Shown in pieces: positions 41,479-47,591 of a stretch of 64,000 nucleotides of DNA. The translations under genes and the position numbers were made by a program. Source of the stretch: Paracoccaceae bacterium (lineage in GTDB: Bacteria; Pseudomonadota; Alphaproteobacteria; Rhodobacterales; Rhodobacteraceae). The stretch's first letter is position 1, and each line of letters starts with the position of its first letter. Below the pieces are notes generated by a model that saw nothing but the letters and a program-made list of their open reading frames with translations, was not told where the DNA came from and did not search any database. The stretch is from assembly GCA_020832655.1 (NCBI GenBank), contig JAFIEF010000001.1, positions 1-64,000 on the forward strand. The letters run 5' to 3'.

Positions 41479-42030
41479 TCAGGCAAATCGGAGCGCTGCC
41501 TCGCGCCTGCGTTGGGTTTCGGGGGCGATTCCCGCATCCGGGTTCGTGCTTACCCCTGCCGCGCGATCTGCAGAAGCGCAGCGTGCAGGTACGCGCGGCC
41601 CTTCGATGCTGAGCAAGGCGTGCAGACCGGCATTGCAGGCAACCAGATCGGACAGATACAGATCATCCAGCGCTGAATAGAACGCATCGACCGCGCGCGA
41701 CAGATGCGGGCGCATGTTGCAGTGGTCTTTCAGCGGGCAGGTGTTGCTGTCAGAAAAACACTCGATGAAGGGCAGTTCTGATTCGAAGGTGCGAAATACC
41801 GCGCCGACGCTGATTGTGTCGGCACTGCGGGCCAGATGAAACCCGCCATTGCGACCGCGCAGGGTTGTGATGAAGCCTTCCTGACCCAGCTTGTTGATGA
41901 CCTGTGCCAGATGATTCTCTGACGCGTTGATCGCCTGCGCCGCATCCTGTTTGCGCACCAGCTTGCCGTCATTCACGGCGCAGAACATAAGCGTGCGCAG
42001 CGCCAGATTCGTGCGTGTTGTCAATCGCAT
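41479..42030 (-). CDS. Rrf2-family regulator, NsrR-like
   Basis: 183 residues. The winged-helix part has MRLTTRTNLALRTLMFCAV and ENHLAQVINKLGQEGFITTL, RGRNGGFHLAR. The iron-sulfur ligands are in FIECFSDSNTCPLKDHC, three cysteines spaced 6 and 5 apart, as in NsrR/IscR-type Rrf2 proteins. NsrR senses nitric oxide through its cluster; the ligand here is unknown. GAGGAG lies before the ATG at 42030; the frame is open upstream but without a regulator-like extension. It is divergent from the SQR gene across 245 bases holding two FNR-type boxes. Confidence 0.8.
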   Translation of the reverse strand: MRLTTRTNLALRTLMFCAVNDGKLVRKQDAAQAINASENHLAQVINKLGQEGFITTLRGRNGGFHLARSADTISVGAVFRTFESELPFIECFSDSNTCPLKDHCNMRPHLSRAVDAFYSALDDLYLSDLVACNAGLHALLSIEGPRVPARCASADRAAGVSTNPDAGIAPETQRRREAALRFA

Positions 42031-42115
42031 GGGTGCCAACTCCTCGCCCATGCGCCTGCATGGATGAAATCCTGTTCCTTGAATGCTGATTATGCCCGGC
42101 TTGCACCGCGCTGCC

Positions 42116-42129
42116 TTGATCAAGATCAA
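42116..42129. promoter_or_regulatory. Perfect FNR/FnrL box (distal)
   Basis: TTGAT-CAAG-ATCAA matches the FNR consensus TTGAT-N4-ATCAA exactly. It is nearer to the Rrf2 gene (about 86 bases before its ATG) than to sqr. Confidence 0.7.
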
Positions 42130-42184
42130 AGCCCCCGCAGAAGGACAATTTGTCGCATGCGGGCATCCGGCAGGAAGAAAACCA

Positions 42185-42198
42185 TTGATCCAGATCAA
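42185..42198. promoter_or_regulatory. Perfect FNR/FnrL box (proximal to sqr)
   Basis: TTGAT-CCAG-ATCAA, again an exact match, centred about 85 bases before the sqr ATG. The second box starts 69 bases after the first. The promoter's -10 element is not clear (TATGTG near 42215 or TATACC near 42236). Confidence 0.75.
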
Positions 42199-42275
42199 AC
42201 ATTATGAAAACAGAATATGTGAAGGTGAACATCTGTATACCGATTCTTGCGCATGACGACGATGGGAGGAACCCG

Positions 42276-43595
42276 ATGATTGATGTAAAAAAGCTTGCGA
42301 CCAGCCGCAGGGCATTCATGGGCCTTGCCGCAGGGGGCAGCGCAGCGCTTGCGCTGGGGGCCGGGCAGGCGCAGGCAAAAGTCCGCACCAATGCGAAAAT
42401 CCTGATCCTTGGCGCTGGTGCGGGCGGGGCTGCAATCGCCAATCGTCTGGTTGAGCGGCTGGACGGCGCGCAGATCACGGTTCTGGATGGCCGTGCGCAG
42501 CATTGGTACCAGCCCGGCTTCACGCTGATTGCTGCGGGGCTGCGCGATGCCAATTATGCCATCTCCTCGACCGAGCAATGGCTGCCGCGCGGGATCACCT
42601 ATATCAACGAATATGCCGCCGAGCTTGACCCCGAAGCCAACCGTGTCATCACCACAGGCGGGCAGCGGCTGGAGTATGATTATCTGATCGTCTCTACCGG
42701 TCTGGTGCTGGACTGGGATGCGATCGAAGGGTTTGACCTTGGCATGGTCGGCCCTGAAAACGGGATCTCTGCGCATTATGCCGGCCCCGAATATGCCGAA
42801 ACCAGCTGGCGCGCGCTGGACAGGTTTACCGATGAGGGGGGCGTCGGCGTGTTCGGACGCCCCGCGACCGAGATGAAATGCGCAGGCGCCCCGGTCAAGA
42901 TCTGCTTTCTGGCGGAAGACATTGCCACCACCAAGGGCAATCGCGGCAAGTGCGAATTCATCTACAACACGCCGGCCACCAATTTGTTCGGGGTGCCGGT
43001 GATCCATCACCGCGTGCGCCAGATCATGGATGAGCGCGACATCGCCTATAATTATCGCTGGACGCTGAAAAGCATCGATCTGGCGGCCAAGACCGCAACC
43101 TTCGACACGCCGGAATTCCTGGAAACGCTGGAATGGGATCATATCAATGTCATCCCGCCCCAGCGCGCGCCGCAGGTGATCCGTGATTCGGGGCTGGCCT
43201 GGGCGGATCGCTGGACCGATCAGGGCTGGATCGAGGTGGACATGCAGACCCTGCGCCATGCCCGTTATCCCAATGTCTTTGGCATTGGCGATATCAATGG
43301 CGTGCCCAAGGGCAAGACTGCCGCCAGCGTCAAGTTCCACCTGCCCGTGGTCGAGGATCATCTGGTCAGCGAGATCGCAGGGCGTGAGGGCACGCGGCTC
43401 TATGATGGCTACACCTCCTGCCCGCTGATCACCCGTGTCGGCCGTGCAATGCTGGTGGAGTTCGACTATCAGGACAATCTGACCCCGTCCTTCCCGGGCC
43501 TTATCGCGCCCTTGGAAGAGTTGTGGATTTCCTGGCTGATGAAGGAAGTCGCGCTGAAAGCCACCTATAACGCCATGCTGCGCGGGCGCGCCTGA
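42276..43595 (+). CDS. sqr: Sulfide:quinone oxidoreductase with twin-arginine signal
   Basis: 439 residues. A Tat signal (TSRRAFMGLAAGGSAALALG) precedes the FAD motif ILILGAGAGGAAIANRLVER. The two catalytic cysteines are in TEMKCAGAPVKICFLAED and YDGYTSCPLITRVGRAMLVE, as in SQR; a third lies in GNRGKCEFIYNTP. The C-terminus is amphipathic (WISWLMKEVALKATYN), probably for membrane contact. It oxidises sulfide to zero-valent sulfur and reduces quinone. GGAGG precedes the ATG at 42276; a frame from 42204 exists but spoils the signal. The next gene, a DUF5368 membrane protein, is 118 bases downstream. Confidence 0.85.
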   Translation: MIDVKKLATSRRAFMGLAAGGSAALALGAGQAQAKVRTNAKILILGAGAGGAAIANRLVERLDGAQITVLDGRAQHWYQPGFTLIAAGLRDANYAISSTEQWLPRGITYINEYAAELDPEANRVITTGGQRLEYDYLIVSTGLVLDWDAIEGFDLGMVGPENGISAHYAGPEYAETSWRALDRFTDEGGVGVFGRPATEMKCAGAPVKICFLAEDIATTKGNRGKCEFIYNTPATNLFGVPVIHHRVRQIMDERDIAYNYRWTLKSIDLAAKTATFDTPEFLETLEWDHINVIPPQRAPQVIRDSGLAWADRWTDQGWIEVDMQTLRHARYPNVFGIGDINGVPKGKTAASVKFHLPVVEDHLVSEIAGREGTRLYDGYTSCPLITRVGRAMLVEFDYQDNLTPSFPGLIAPLEELWISWLMKEVALKATYNAMLRGRA

Positions 43596-43605
43596 GCCAT
43601 GCAGG

Positions 43606-43682
43606 GCAGGGGGCTGCCGCCCCCTCGACCAGCGCCGCTGGCGCTGGTCTCACCCCCGCGGATATTTGGGCAAGGATGAAAC
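43606..43682 (+). repeat. REP-like element with hairpins and GATATTTGGGCAAGGATGAA core
   Basis: GGGGGC and GCCCCC flank a small loop; then GACCAGCGCC-GCT-GGCGCTGGTC is a perfect 10-base hairpin (43627-43649); the element ends with CACCCCCGCGGATATTTGGG at 43651-43670, then CAAGGATGAAA. The last part matches copies at 18588-18620 and 52639-52659. Such elements are widespread in Rhodobacterales downstream of genes. Confidence 0.75.
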
Positions 43683-43713
43683 AGCCTGCCCGCGAAGACA
43701 AAAGGATGAGAGA

Positions 43714-44070
43714 ATGGAAGAATTCAGCCTGATGACAATCCTGGCCGTGTTCGAAGAGATGTTCGGGCGCTGGCTGTTCTGGGCGATGGTGCTGGTCGCC
43801 GTGGCGATTACAGTGGCCTATCTCTATGTGCTGATCCGTGACCGCGCGATGTCGATGCGCAAATTCCTGCTGGCGCAACTTTCGATGCCGGTGGGCGGCA
43901 TTGCGGCTGTGTGGTTCGTGCTGCTGATGACCAATTCCAGCCTGCGCGATATTGGTGGCCCGATCGACTGGATCGTGCTGCTGGGCGTTTTTGTCGCGGG
44001 GGCAGTGGGTTTCGCAATCCTGGTTTATGTGGTGCAATCGCTGGCGCGGGGCAAGGACGCAGAAATCTGA
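43714..44070 (+). CDS. DUF5368 membrane protein
   Basis: 118 residues with three membrane helices: WLFWAMVLVAVAITVAYLYV, QLSMPVGGIAAVWFVLLMTN and IVLLGVFVAGAVGFAILVYV. The family is known mainly from Rhodobacterales, often beside sulfide-oxidoreductase genes, and has no assigned activity. AAAGGATGAGAGA provides the ribosome site. An intrinsic terminator follows at 44131. Confidence 0.75.
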   Translation: MEEFSLMTILAVFEEMFGRWLFWAMVLVAVAITVAYLYVLIRDRAMSMRKFLLAQLSMPVGGIAAVWFVLLMTNSSLRDIGGPIDWIVLLGVFVAGAVGFAILVYVVQSLARGKDAEI

Positions 44071-44130
44071 TCCCCGCATAATGAGCCTCTGGCCGCACAT
44101 CGCGCCTCCCGGTGATGTTCGGCGCAGCAT

Positions 44131-44166
44131 GCCCGCGCTCCTCCTCCCGGGAACGCGGGCTTTTTC
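44131..44166 (+). terminator. Intrinsic terminator after the DUF5368 gene
   Basis: GCCCGCG and CGCGGGC, with a 16-base loop, then TTTTTC. It separates the sqr transcript from cysS. Confidence 0.85.
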
Positions 44167-44177
44167 ATGTTTCGGGC

Positions 44178-44206
44178 TTGGCAGTGGGGCGGGGCGCGAT
44201 TATGGT
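44178..44206 (+). promoter_or_regulatory. Sigma-70-type promoter for the cysS leader
   Basis: TTGGCA (-35, five of six matching) at 44178-44183, a 17-base spacer, and TATGGT (-10, four of six) at 44201-44206. The expected transcription start is about 44213, the A of the ATG of the mini-ORF. Confidence 0.6.
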
Positions 44207-44212
44207 CTGGCC

Positions 44213-44257
44213 ATGACCCGCTTGACCTGCATCATTTGCTGCTGCATTTGCCGCTGA
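44213..44257 (+). CDS. Five-cysteine leader peptide upstream of cysS
   Basis: 14 codons plus stop: MTRLTCIICCCICR. Five of the 14 residues are cysteine (codons 6, 9, 10, 11, 13), all TGC, in a 24-base stretch. It has no clear ribosome site, and the promoter predicted above would start transcription at its own ATG, so it may be leaderless. The stop at 44255 is 78 bases before the cysS ATG. The natural reading is a cysteine-tRNA sensor: slow decoding of the cysteine run, when charged tRNA-Cys is scarce, would change the fold of the following RNA and raise cysS expression. Polycysteine leaderless mini-ORFs with this role are known in mycobacteria; I know of none described here. Confidence 0.7.
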   Translation: MTRLTCIICCCICR

Positions 44258-44335
44258 GAGTTTTCGGCGGTCGGTCCTTGTCATCCTGTTGATCCAGACA
44301 ACACCTTCCGCCGGGCCTTGGCCGAAGAGGACCCT
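44258..44335 (+). promoter_or_regulatory. Putative attenuator between leader peptide and cysS
   Basis: Alternative pairings are visible. GGCGG (44266-44270) can pair with CCGCC (44308-44312), or TTTTCGGC (44261-44268) with GCCGAAGA (44321-44328); these exclude each other. GGTCC (44273-44277) can also pair with GGACC (44329-44333), covering the AGAGG ribosome site of cysS. There is no U-run, so control would be translational or Rho-linked rather than by intrinsic termination. Confidence 0.45.
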
Positions 44336-45799
44336 ATGCGCCCGATCAGACTGCACAATACCCGCACGCGCCGGAAGGAAGATTTCGCGCCGCTCGACCA
44401 AAAAAATGTTCGCATCTATGTCTGCGGCCCCACTGTCTATGACCGCGCGCATCTGGGCAATGCGCGGCCCGTGGTGGTGTTCGATGTGTTGTATCGTTTG
44501 CTGCGCCATGTCTATGGCGAGGGGCATGTGACCTATGTGCGCAATTTCACCGATGTCGATGACAAGATCAACGCGCGGGCGCGGGCGATGCAGGAAGCGG
44601 GCGATGGCCGCGCGCTCAATGACATTATCCGCGCGCTGACCGATGAGACAATCGGCTGGTATCATGCCGATATGGATGCGCTGGGCGCGTTGCGCCCCGA
44701 CCACGAGCCGCGCGCGACCGAATTCATCGGCCAGATGATCGGCATGATCGAGGGGCTGGTGGCCAAGGGCCATGCCTATGCCGCTGAAGGCCATGTGCTG
44801 TTTGATGTGCGCAGCTACCCCGATTACGGGCATCTGTCGGGGCGGTCGGTCGATGACATGATCGCAGGCGCGCGGGTCGAAGTCGCGCCCTATAAGCGTG
44901 ACCCGATGGATTTCGTGCTGTGGAAACCGTCATCGGATGAAGAACCGGGATGGGAGTCGCCCTGGGGGCGCGGGCGTCCGGGCTGGCATATCGAATGCTC
45001 GGCGATGGCGCATGAATTGCTCGGCCCGTCCTTTGACATTCATGGCGGCGGGATCGATCTGCAATTTCCCCATCATGAAAACGAGATCGCCCAAAGCTGC
45101 TGCGCCCACCCCGATGCGGGCTTCGCGAATGTCTGGATGCATAACGAGATGGTGCAGGTCGAGGGCAAGAAGATGTCCAAATCCCTGGGCAATTTCTTCA
45201 CGGTGCGGGATTTGCTGGATCAGGGCTGGCCGGGCGAGGTGATCCGTTTCGTGATGCTGTCCACGCATTACCGCAAGCCGATGGACTGGACGGAGGAGAA
45301 GGCGCGGGAGGCTAAAGATACGCTAAACAGATGGCGGCGCATGTTCGGTGACGTGCTTGAAAGCGACTGGATGGGACAGCCCGCGGTCGAAGTAACTGAT
45401 GCTCTTGAGAATGATATGAATACCGCGCAGGCGCTCTCCGAATTGCATCGGATGCATTCGGGCATACTAAACGCTTACAATGGAATTATTGCCTACGGTA
45501 CGGACTATGATGGCACTGATCCGCAGACGCTCGAAGCGACGTTCTTGAGTTCGGCGAGGCTGCTGGGTTTGTTGGAGCCAAGTATGGGTAGCTGGTCGAA
45601 AAATACAGATCTTTCTGCGTTCGCCAGCAAGCTATTCGAGTTGCGAGCAGTGGCGATGGACACCAAGGACTTCGGTGCAGTTGACGCGCTTAAGTCTGCC
45701 CTGATCGAGTGCGGGGTCGAAGTTCGCATGACCAAGGAGAGCGTAGAGTTGGTTCCAACTGCGGACTTTGACCCATCAAAGCTGGAGGGGATTGAATGA
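44336..45799 (+). CDS. cysS: Cysteinyl-tRNA synthetase
   Basis: 487 residues, class I. The HIGH-type motif with a zinc cysteine is [20 protein letters not shown]; further zinc ligands are in [18 protein letters not shown] and [13 protein letters not shown]; the KMSKS loop is [18 protein letters not shown]. The C-terminal helical domain, from about residue 330, contacts the tRNA. Start at 44336 with AGAGG 6 bases before. The 3' part (about 45361-45780) has 53 percent GC by hand count against about 70 percent earlier in the gene, with codon choices (TTG, GTT, ACT, AGC) unlike its front half. Downstream are strong hairpins and then cimA. Confidence 0.96.
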
Positions 45800-45820
45800 A
45801 CCTCCCACACCTCAAGCGTA

Positions 45821-45901
45821 GCCCCCGACCCGAGGGTGGGGGCGATTTCGCCCCCGCCCTGGGGGGCGGGTCGGGGGCGAAGCGGGTCGCGGGCGACCCG
45901 C
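45821..45901. repeat. Hairpin-rich palindromic element between cysS and cimA
   Basis: GCCCCCGACCCG (45821-45832) and CGGGTCGGGGGC (45867-45878) are perfect 12-base arms, with an inner GGGGGCGA-TTT-CGCCCCC stem. A second perfect hairpin GCGGGTCGC-GG-GCGACCCGC follows at 45882-45901. No U-run follows, so its role as a terminator is doubtful; it resembles a REP-type palindrome. Confidence 0.7.
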
Positions 45902-45962
45902 AACCTGATTGCCTTGAAGCGCAATTCGGGCAAGCGATGGTCCGGCTGCAATGGAGCCAACC

Positions 45963-47591
45963 ATGACCCGCGAGCGTCTTTATCTCTACGACACCACACT
46001 CCGCGACGGGCAGCAGACGCAGGGCGTGCAGTTCTCGACCACGGAAAAGCAGGCCATTGCGGCGATGCTCGACAGTCTTGGCATCGACTATATCGAAGGC
46101 GGCTGGCCCGGCGCGAACCCTACTGACAGCGAGTTTTTCGCCAACCGCCCCCAGACCCGCGCCACCTTCACTGCGTTTGGCATGACCAAGCGCGCGGGGC
46201 GGTCGGCGGAAAATGATGAGGTGCTGGCTGCGGTGCTGAATGCGGGCACAGAGGCCGTGTGCCTGGTCGGCAAGACGCATGATTTCCATGTCACCACCGC
46301 GCTGGGCATCACGCTGGAGGAGAATGTCGACAATATCGCCGCCAGTGTCGCCCATTGCGTGGCCCAAGGGCGCGAGGCGCATTTCGATGCCGAGCATTTC
46401 TTCGATGGCTACAAGGCCAACCCCGATTATGCGCTGCAAGCCCTGCATGCCGCGCATGGCGCGGGTGCGGCTTGGGTGGTGCTGTGCGACACCAATGGCG
46501 GCACCCTGCCCAGCGAGATCCGCGCCATCACCGAGGCGGTGATCGCCAGTGGCATTCCCGGCGCGCAGCTTGGCATCCATTGCCATGATGATACAGGGCA
46601 GGCCGTGGCCTGTTCGCTGGCCGCGGTTGAGGCCGGCGCGCGCCAGATCCAGGGCACGCTGAACGGGCTGGGGGAACGCTGCGGCAATGCCTCGCTGACG
46701 ACGCTGATCCCGACGCTGCTGCTCAAACCCGCCTATGCCGAGCGCTTTGAAACCGGCGTGAGCCGCGACGCGCTGACGGGGCTTTTGCGCATCTCGCGCA
46801 GGCTGGATGATATCCTCAACCGCGTGCCCTTGCGCTCGCTGCCCTATGTCGGGGCTTCTGCCTTCGCGCATAAGGCGGGGTTGCATGCCAGCGCGATACT
46901 GAAAGACCCTACAACTTACGAGCATGTCGAGCCGGGTCAGGTGGGCAATGCGCGCGTGGTGCCGATGTCCAATCAGGCCGGGCAGTCGAACCTGCGTATG
47001 CGGCTGGCCGATATGGGCATCGCGGTCGAAAAGGGCGATGCGCGGCTGGGGGCGATCCTTGACGATATCAAGACCCGCGAGGATCAGGGCTATGCTTACG
47101 ATTCCGCGCAGGCCAGTTTCGAATTGCTGGCGCGGCGCGCGCTGGGGCAGGTGCCCGATTTCTTCGAGGTCAAGCGCTACCGCGTCACGGTAGAGCGGCG
47201 CAAGAACAAGCGCAACCAGATGGTCACGCTGTCAGAGGCCGTGGTGGTGGTCAAGATCGGCGATGACAAGAAGCTCTCGGTCTCGGAATCGATGGATGCG
47301 GCAGGCTGCGACCGCGGCCCGGTCAATGCGCTGTCCAAGGCGCTGGCCAAGGATCTTGGCCCCTATCAGGGCGCAATCGACGACATGAAGCTGGTGGATT
47401 TCAAGGTCCGTATCACGCAAGGGGGAACCGAGGCCGTGACCCGTGTCATCATCGATAGCGAGGACGGGCAGGGGCGGCGCTGGTCCACTGTGGGGGTGTC
47501 GGCCAATATAGTGGATGCCAGCTTCCAGGCGCTCGTGGATGCTGTGATCTGGAAACTTTTGCGCGACGGGGTGCAACCATGTCGGAACTGA
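45963..47591 (+). CDS. cimA: (R)-citramalate synthase
   Basis: 542 residues, HMGL-like TIM barrel then LeuA-type dimer/regulatory domain. The catalytic start is LYLYDTTLRDGQQTQGVQFS; metal and substrate motifs are GGWPGANPTDSEFF, GIHCHDDTGQAVACSLAAVE and TLNGLGERCGNASL. The C-terminal LeuA dimer domain starts about residue 410 (KRYRVTVERRKNKRNQMVTL). It condenses pyruvate with acetyl-CoA to citramalate, feeding isoleucine synthesis without threonine deaminase. The next gene overlaps it by 13 bases. Confidence 0.9.
   Translation: MTRERLYLYDTTLRDGQQTQGVQFSTTEKQAIAAMLDSLGIDYIEGGWPGANPTDSEFFANRPQTRATFTAFGMTKRAGRSAENDEVLAAVLNAGTEAVCLVGKTHDFHVTTALGITLEENVDNIAASVAHCVAQGREAHFDAEHFFDGYKANPDYALQALHAAHGAGAAWVVLCDTNGGTLPSEIRAITEAVIASGIPGAQLGIHCHDDTGQAVACSLAAVEAGARQIQGTLNGLGERCGNASLTTLIPTLLLKPAYAERFETGVSRDALTGLLRISRRLDDILNRVPLRSLPYVGASAFAHKAGLHASAILKDPTTYEHVEPGQVGNARVVPMSNQAGQSNLRMRLADMGIAVEKGDARLGAILDDIKTREDQGYAYDSAQASFELLARRALGQVPDFFEVKRYRVTVERRKNKRNQMVTLSEAVVVVKIGDDKKLSVSESMDAAGCDRGPVNALSKALAKDLGPYQGAIDDMKLVDFKVRITQGGTEAVTRVIIDSEDGQGRRWSTVGVSANIVDASFQALVDAVIWKLLRDGVQPCRN

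Follow-up and report, generated by a model that had tools for sequence, protein, structure and literature searches.

The DNA analysed here, a stretch of 64,000 nucleotides from a Paracoccaceae bacterium (contig JAFIEF010000001.1; referred to as the window), carries a mini-ORF ahead of cysS that probably lets the bacterium sense a shortage of cysteine or isoleucine, and so control cysS together with cimA. The reading that we favour, and consider likely from the comparison of sequences, is that of a leaderless ribosome-mediated attenuator that would sense charged tRNA-Cys and charged tRNA-Ile and control a cysS-cimA operon. It is based on conservation, the content of control codons, the association with cimA, the promoter geometry and mutually exclusive pairing in the folds. 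The first-pass annotation of this region had proposed an attenuator of cysS that senses cysteine. The conserved Cys codons and stop, the leaderless geometry and the switchable stems of that proposal are retained here, but cysteine alone does not account for the leader, as Ile codons equal or outnumber Cys codons in the leaders of relatives and cimA is found after cysS. The features of the window are listed in the table.

Table. Features of the leader and of the two genes that follow it (window coordinates)
Feature	Position	Strand	Details
Sigma70-type promoter TTGGCA-N17-TATGGT	44178..44206	+	TTGGCA 44178-44183, N17, TATGGT 44201-44206
Leader mini-ORF MTRLTCIICCCICR	44213..44257	+	14 codons, ATG 44213, stop TGA 44255-44257
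Hairpin H1, 9 pairs	44250..44271	+	44250-44258 with 44263-44271, over the last codons and stop; MFE fold
Alternative helix H2	44266..44312	+	GGCGG 44266-44270 with CCGCC 44308-44312; fold with the ORF end masked
Ribosome-site stem	44273..44333	+	GGTCCT 44273-44278 with AGGACC 44328-44333; unmasked fold
cysS, cysteine--tRNA ligase	44336..45799	+	TIGR00435, 432 bits, cut-off 340
cimA, citramalate synthase	45963..47591	+	TIGR00977, 579 bits, cut-off 450, match on 45966-47588

Five of the 14 codons of the mini-ORF are TGC (Cys at codons 6, 9, 10, 11 and 13), with the three tandem ones at 44237-44245, and 78 bases (44258-44335) separate its stop codon from the cysS ATG at 44336. These features are present as the first-pass annotation had described them; the Ile codons at positions 7, 8 and 12, the hairpin H1 and the presence of cimA as the next gene were not mentioned there. 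The same annotation had predicted, from TTGGCA-N17-TATGGT, a transcription start on the ATG. This is the sole promoter-like site in 44060-44400 (1 found versus 0.1 expected), and an alignment of 103 upstream regions shows a similar geometry, in agreement with that prediction. With the -10 element ending 6 bases upstream of the mini-ORF ATG, the predicted transcription start is the A of the ATG. When the 103 upstream regions, which were chosen by a Cys+Ile filter, were aligned on the ATG, T was found at -36 in 59 % and at -35 in 83 %, T or A at -12 in 92 %, A at -11 in 64 % and C at -1 in 87 %, and there was no clear purine-rich Shine-Dalgarno signal before the ATG. As judged from the aligned letters, this geometry fits transcription beginning at the ATG, as expected for a leaderless transcript.

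In the window, cimA starts at ATG 45963, with an in-frame alternative at ATG 45951, leaving a gap of 163 or 151 bases after cysS. Between the two genes, a search of 45760-46000 gave no promoter- or terminator-like site. By eye, GC-rich inverted repeats lacking a T-run are seen at about 45820-45902. CimA makes an isoleucine precursor and feeds Ile only. To examine relatives, we selected 60 genus representatives, one genome per genus for 60 of the 112 genera, from among the best cimA matches in 292 genomes of the order. In this set, cysS is directly before cimA in 60/60, the two genes overlap by 1 or 4 bases in 13/60 (using estimated starts) and the median gap is 113.5 bases. The gene upstream of the putative operon in the window, at 42204-43595, resembles sulfide:quinone reductase (NCBIfam NF049943, below its cut-off).

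Leader ORFs were defined as an ATG followed by a reading frame of 7-30 codons with at least two Cys in the last nine codons and a stop 40-165 bases before cysS. The first-pass annotation had expected the Cys codons and stop to be kept upstream of cysS across Rhodobacterales, and they are: 54/60 of the genus representatives (best cimA matches) have such an ORF, compared to 3.3 % of 12,000 first-order Markov resamplings of the representatives' own upstream regions, and at least five Cys+Ile in the last nine codons were found in 50/60, compared to 0.03 % of the resamplings. As the representatives were drawn from the best cimA matches, genomes with a weaker cimA (genus g7 and others) are outside this set. 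Among 13 further cimA-bearing loci, mostly from g7 and the window's genus, eight pass the ORF rule. No cysS over the cut-off was found in G291, a member of the window's genus. The nearest named relatives of the window among the matches listed are Rhodobacteraceae, and in a scan of 80 named cysS loci among the matches listed similar ORFs were found in Rhodobacteraceae and in several Rhizobiales-type genomes. Across the class, the ORF is rare, with one chance-like match in set D (48/50 class-sample loci), which leaves out L201 and L221, both with an ORF. A leader covariance model, trained on the window and some of the 81 genomes searched, matches 70/81 genomes, a single time in 69, the window's genome included. 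No Rfam family was detected at gathering scores in 42000-47000 of the window or in five relatives.

The 54 ORFs in the best-cimA-match set were picked on Cys alone, and every one has at least two Ile in the last nine codons. The composition of these nine codons is 41.8 % Ile, 30.6 % Cys, 9.1 % Thr and 1.9 % Leu, with no Val. Ile-rich, Leu-poor and Val-free ORFs match cimA, as cimA feeds only Ile. Positions within the ORF were examined in 88 leaders (of 96 loci), chosen by a rule requiring Cys and Ile together. Ile is at codon -3 in 81 of these and Cys at codons -4/-5 in 60 and 70, the Cys-Cys-Ile near the ORF end is well kept, and TGC/TGT and ATC/ATT/ATA are all used. Thr is also frequent in this Cys+Ile-picked set (14.2 %). 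The Ile at codon -3 is ATT in 76/81, the other Ile positions mixing ATC and ATT, and this bias suggests a constraint on the letters too. Cys and Ile swap places between species, and hence it is the composition that is conserved and not one peptide. In some relatives, the leader has 4-5 Ile and one Cys (MTTATRNRISILIICS, MKTSSVTIITCRIIIS). The two genus mates of the window that were examined have one Ile each (MTRLTITLCCCMCR, MNCLTLTLCCCICR) and 4-5 Cys, though cimA follows. The window leader has five Cys and three Ile and, given the single Ile of its genus mates, the signal for two amino acids is less strong there than elsewhere in the order.

The content of the leader was compared with the presence of cimA. 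In 16/292 genomes of the order, no cimA over the cut-off was found. Twelve of these 16 are without an ORF by the Cys rule and three have an ORF with a single Ile (MDWICCLCRA twice and MTCAPIACRA). The exception, G191, has a Cys+Ile ORF, MTGHGNICICCIIG, and a contig end truncates its cysS. A cysS tree of 43 rows included the other 15 cimA-less genomes (G191 was left out as its cysS is cut) and 28 picked cimA-bearing genomes. On this tree, the absence of cimA needs five changes, at least three of them on supported branches. ORFs with at least two Ile are present in 23/28 cimA-bearing rows versus 0/15 cimA-less rows, and under a looser rule an ORF is present in 27/28 versus 3/15; with just three independent pairs on the tree, a sign test on this difference is unable to reach 0.05. 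The five cimA-bearing rows without an ORF with at least two Ile are L153, L161, L164, L166 and L167, and of these L161 has cimA and no ORF. In the printed upstream regions of cimA-less g7 genomes, cysS is (by eye) close behind the apparent end of another reading frame, and the leader may therefore have been lost in a rearrangement of the whole locus.

In the family of G472, the ORF was found at 11/30 cysS loci (e.g. MFVRAFSPCCCACCCR, MIATNASGCCPCCC and MSRAAFACPACRSCCC). Eight of these 11 ORFs lack Ile in their last nine codons and two have two (mean Ile 0.45 versus 3.74), and cimA over the cut-off was found in 0/11 of the ORF-bearing genomes, the cimA search covering those 11 of the 30 loci. 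This family is likened to Hyphomonas because a named genome, Hyphomonas beringensis (L079), has a similar ORF; no cimA over the cut-off was found in that genome. Eleven Rhizobiales-type named genomes (L029, L031, L037, L043-L046, L048, L056, L071 and L074) have Cys+Ile leaders, picked by the Cys+Ile filter. Ten have cimA over the cut-off, and in L071 the gene is present as a fragment, broken off where the contig ends. In seven of the loci (L029, L031, L045, L048, L056, L071 and L074) cimA is 0.1-2.9 kb after cysS, with several same-strand reading frames between the two genes in L048, and in L037, L043 and L044 it is about 3.0-3.2 kb downstream of cysS on the same strand (contig coordinates). 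In L046, the position of cimA fits but the contig label differs, and this locus was not counted as having cimA downstream of cysS. Elsewhere in the class, L221 (genome G411, from another order) has the leader MKTAATIWCICCTIIIS and cimA 58 bases after cysS. L188 and L189, class-mates of one genus, have an ORF of the MTCRCCRKNTTESLA type with early Cys codons, 117-69 bases before cysS, which may be another cysteine leader.

We lean towards the view that one leader peptide gates the operon in response to two unrelated amino acids, either of which suffices, as the operon joins the synthetase for tRNA-Cys to the Ile-specific CimA, and that the control codons evolve with the operon content. The pattern of codons expected under this view would be Cys+Ile with cysS-cimA, mostly Cys alone without cimA, and Ile-dominant in some Rhizobiales.

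In the window, H1 takes in the stop, Arg14 and part of Cys13, and the tandem Cys lie outside it. H2 shares 44266-44270 with H1, so that the two are mutually exclusive, and the ribosome-site stem nests with H1 and would cross H2. Of the stems put forward in the first-pass annotation, GGCGG/CCGCC was recovered in the masked fold and GGTCC/GGACC over the ribosome site in the unmasked fold, but an 8-pair stem, 44261-44268 with 44321-44328, formed in neither, though the complementarity is present by eye. Masking folds took 95/103 leaders, namely 89 plus six of genus g7. In partition-function folds of the 89, H1 has 4.9-5.4 expected pairs versus 2.2 in shuffles, and masking of the ORF through the stop codon shifts the leaders to H2 (11.4 expected pairs versus 5.75 in shuffles). 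H2 is strong when the masked edge is at about -4 to +8 of the stop, drops to 7.3 pairs at +11 and is mostly lost at +14 (2.5 pairs). These results suggest that a ribosome stalled in the last codons would favour H2 and that one at the stop may not, depending on its footprint, as in usual attenuators. The six g7 leaders have a weak H2 and do not switch on masking.

In the window, the cysS ribosome site has an openness of 0.17 without masking and of 0.57-0.67 when masking ends between -1 and +11 relative to the stop, then of 0.30 at +14, 0.24 at +17 and 0.66 at +20. The outcome for a ribosome at the stop thus varies with the footprint: the site is open for +11 and +20 and shut for +14 and +17. 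Averaged over the 89 leaders, the openness changes little (0.36 unmasked, 0.45 at +2 and 0.33 at +14, with a maximum of 0.46). In an alignment, A1, consisting of the window and 60 of 75 listed leaders picked by hand, 85.4 % of cells are paired for H1 and 85.6 % for H2. Covariation on A1 is modest and above that of shuffles, with 0/500 shuffles as high for H1 and 5/500 for H2. RNAalifold gave no consensus structure on A1 and H1 and H2 were therefore examined by masking and pair counts. There are no terminator-like sites in 44060-44400 of the window and no 3′ U-run was found there, and intrinsic termination in the window was for this reason judged unlikely. Of the two, sequestration of the ribosome site seems the more probable means of control in the window. 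In many relatives, H1 is followed by a U/C-rich tract.

From these features we infer ribosome stalling, the direction of the response, the level of control and the co-transcription of cysS and cimA. Transcription would begin with the A of the mini-ORF start codon, where, going by the promoter geometry, the ribosome would initiate without a Shine-Dalgarno sequence. When tRNA-Cys and tRNA-Ile are both charged, the ribosome would reach the stop codon. While it is there, or after its release, segment 2 would be covered or held in H1, and H2 would be unable to form. In the absence of H2, the ribosome site of cysS would be blocked (the GGTCCT/AGGACC stem would do this in the window); relatives in which H1 is followed by a U-rich tract may instead terminate transcription. 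If either tRNA is uncharged, the ribosome would stall on one of the last nine codons and melt H1, allowing H2 to form and cysS-cimA to be expressed.

It is possible, though we think it unlikely, that the leader is a cysteine-only attenuator of cysS in which the Ile codons have only an incidental role, as A/U-rich spacers that prevent structure in the ORF or take part in pairing. That cysS is the first gene, the frequent Cys at codons -4/-5 (60 and 70 of 88 leaders), the 4-5 Cys with one Ile in the window's genus mates, the retention of MDWICCLCRA in two cimA-less genomes and the ATT bias at codon -3 are all consistent with this. However, other A/U-rich codons (Lys, Phe, Leu and Val) are rare in the ORF, all 54 ORFs picked on Cys in the best-cimA-match set have at least two Ile, Ile is low where cimA is absent, and the relatives with 4-5 Ile and one Cys (MTTATRNRISILIICS, MKTSSVTIITCRIIIS) do not fit. 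A conserved block after the ORF might also be chiefly a second promoter for cysS (TTTCCA-N17-TGCTAAGCC), with the ORF weakly regulatory, but we regard this as distinctly improbable. It would explain why 72/85 leaders have TT at -23/-22 (90 % and 94 %) at a fixed spacing from the TGNTA block, the T, G, T/C and A of which were imposed by the search pattern. It leaves the Cys and Ile codons unexplained, however, and H2 is kept around the block with some compensatory change and is also kept (by eye) in Rhizobiales-type leaders without the block. Moreover, the window is without the block (by eye) and has no second promoter-like site in 44060-44400. In relatives, TTTCCA is found 17 bases before TGCTAAGCC inside H2 (e.g. 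L021, about 2940-2970), and this could bypass the leader there.

That the ORF encodes a functional or ribosome-arresting peptide, e.g. one sensing metal or redox state, rather than a codon-counting leader, is very unlikely. The well-kept Cys-Cys-Ile near the ORF end would fit such a peptide, but the order of residues is permuted between species and Cys runs without Ile are found in the G472 family. Short ORFs are frequent, and a chance ORF with no role must also be considered, but the Markov resampling control and the matches of the leader model to 70/81 genomes make this extremely improbable.

In Escherichia coli, thrL and ilvL have control codons for more than one amino acid and pheM regulates an aminoacyl-tRNA synthetase operon. 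These leaders involve amino acids of linked pathways, or a synthetase alone, whereas the leader proposed here would serve both a synthetase for Cys and an enzyme for Ile. To our knowledge, the polycysteine ORFs of mycobacteria contain no Ile codons.

Cysteine attenuation at cysS, which the first-pass annotation had taken to be novel, has already been proposed in print. The uORFC-8-2 motif, with 145 examples before cysS in Rhodobacterales, was proposed to represent ribosome-mediated attenuators sensing charged tRNA-Cys (main text of PMC8632094). The gene, the order and a uORF with an AUG and tandem Cys are shared with the window. However, according to the same text, the tandem Cys are usually at positions 14-15 (9-11 of 14 in the window) and the terminator has a 3′ U-run (none found in 44060-44400 of the window). 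The motif has two stems, the first of which holds the Cys codons; in the window, H1 includes part of Cys13 and not the tandem Cys. The main text of PMC8632094 does not mention isoleucine, citramalate, cimA, leaderless, Rhizobiales, Rhizobium or Hyphomonas. In mycobacteria, leaderless polycysteine short ORFs are cysteine-responsive attenuators (Canestrari et al. 2020, as summarized in the review PMC9031893). They share with the window a leaderless ORF (predicted in the window) and contiguous Cys codons but belong to another phylum and target cysteine biosynthesis operons, whereas the mini-ORF of the window is followed by cysS and cimA. Cys leader peptides of Actinobacteria have Cys runs near the stop and, in Mycobacterium, no conserved terminator hairpin; they are before cys and cbs operons, and cysS and cimA are absent from that text (PMC1262725). 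Within the Alphaproteobacteria, trpL of Sinorhizobium meliloti encodes a 14-aa leader peptide and is an attenuator on a leaderless transcript (PMC10117765). Unlike the Cys/Ile leader before cysS-cimA, it is a tryptophan attenuator before trpE. No report of a Cys+Ile leader or of its link to cimA was found in the open-licence literature, which most subscription journals are outside.

The part of the proposal that concerns Ile and cimA appears to be new and is well supported by comparison of genomes. If the leader works as proposed, it would couple the capacity of protein synthesis for cysteine to the supply of isoleucine in a large order of bacteria. Threonine deaminase of E. coli is inhibited by excess cysteine. 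CimA may therefore supply Ile when cysteine is high, and this is a possible reason for the pairing of the two genes. The leaders would also represent a natural experiment, in which the content of the operon could be read from the leader codons, and would provide a simple way to predict the amino acids sensed and the content of the operon from leader ORFs.
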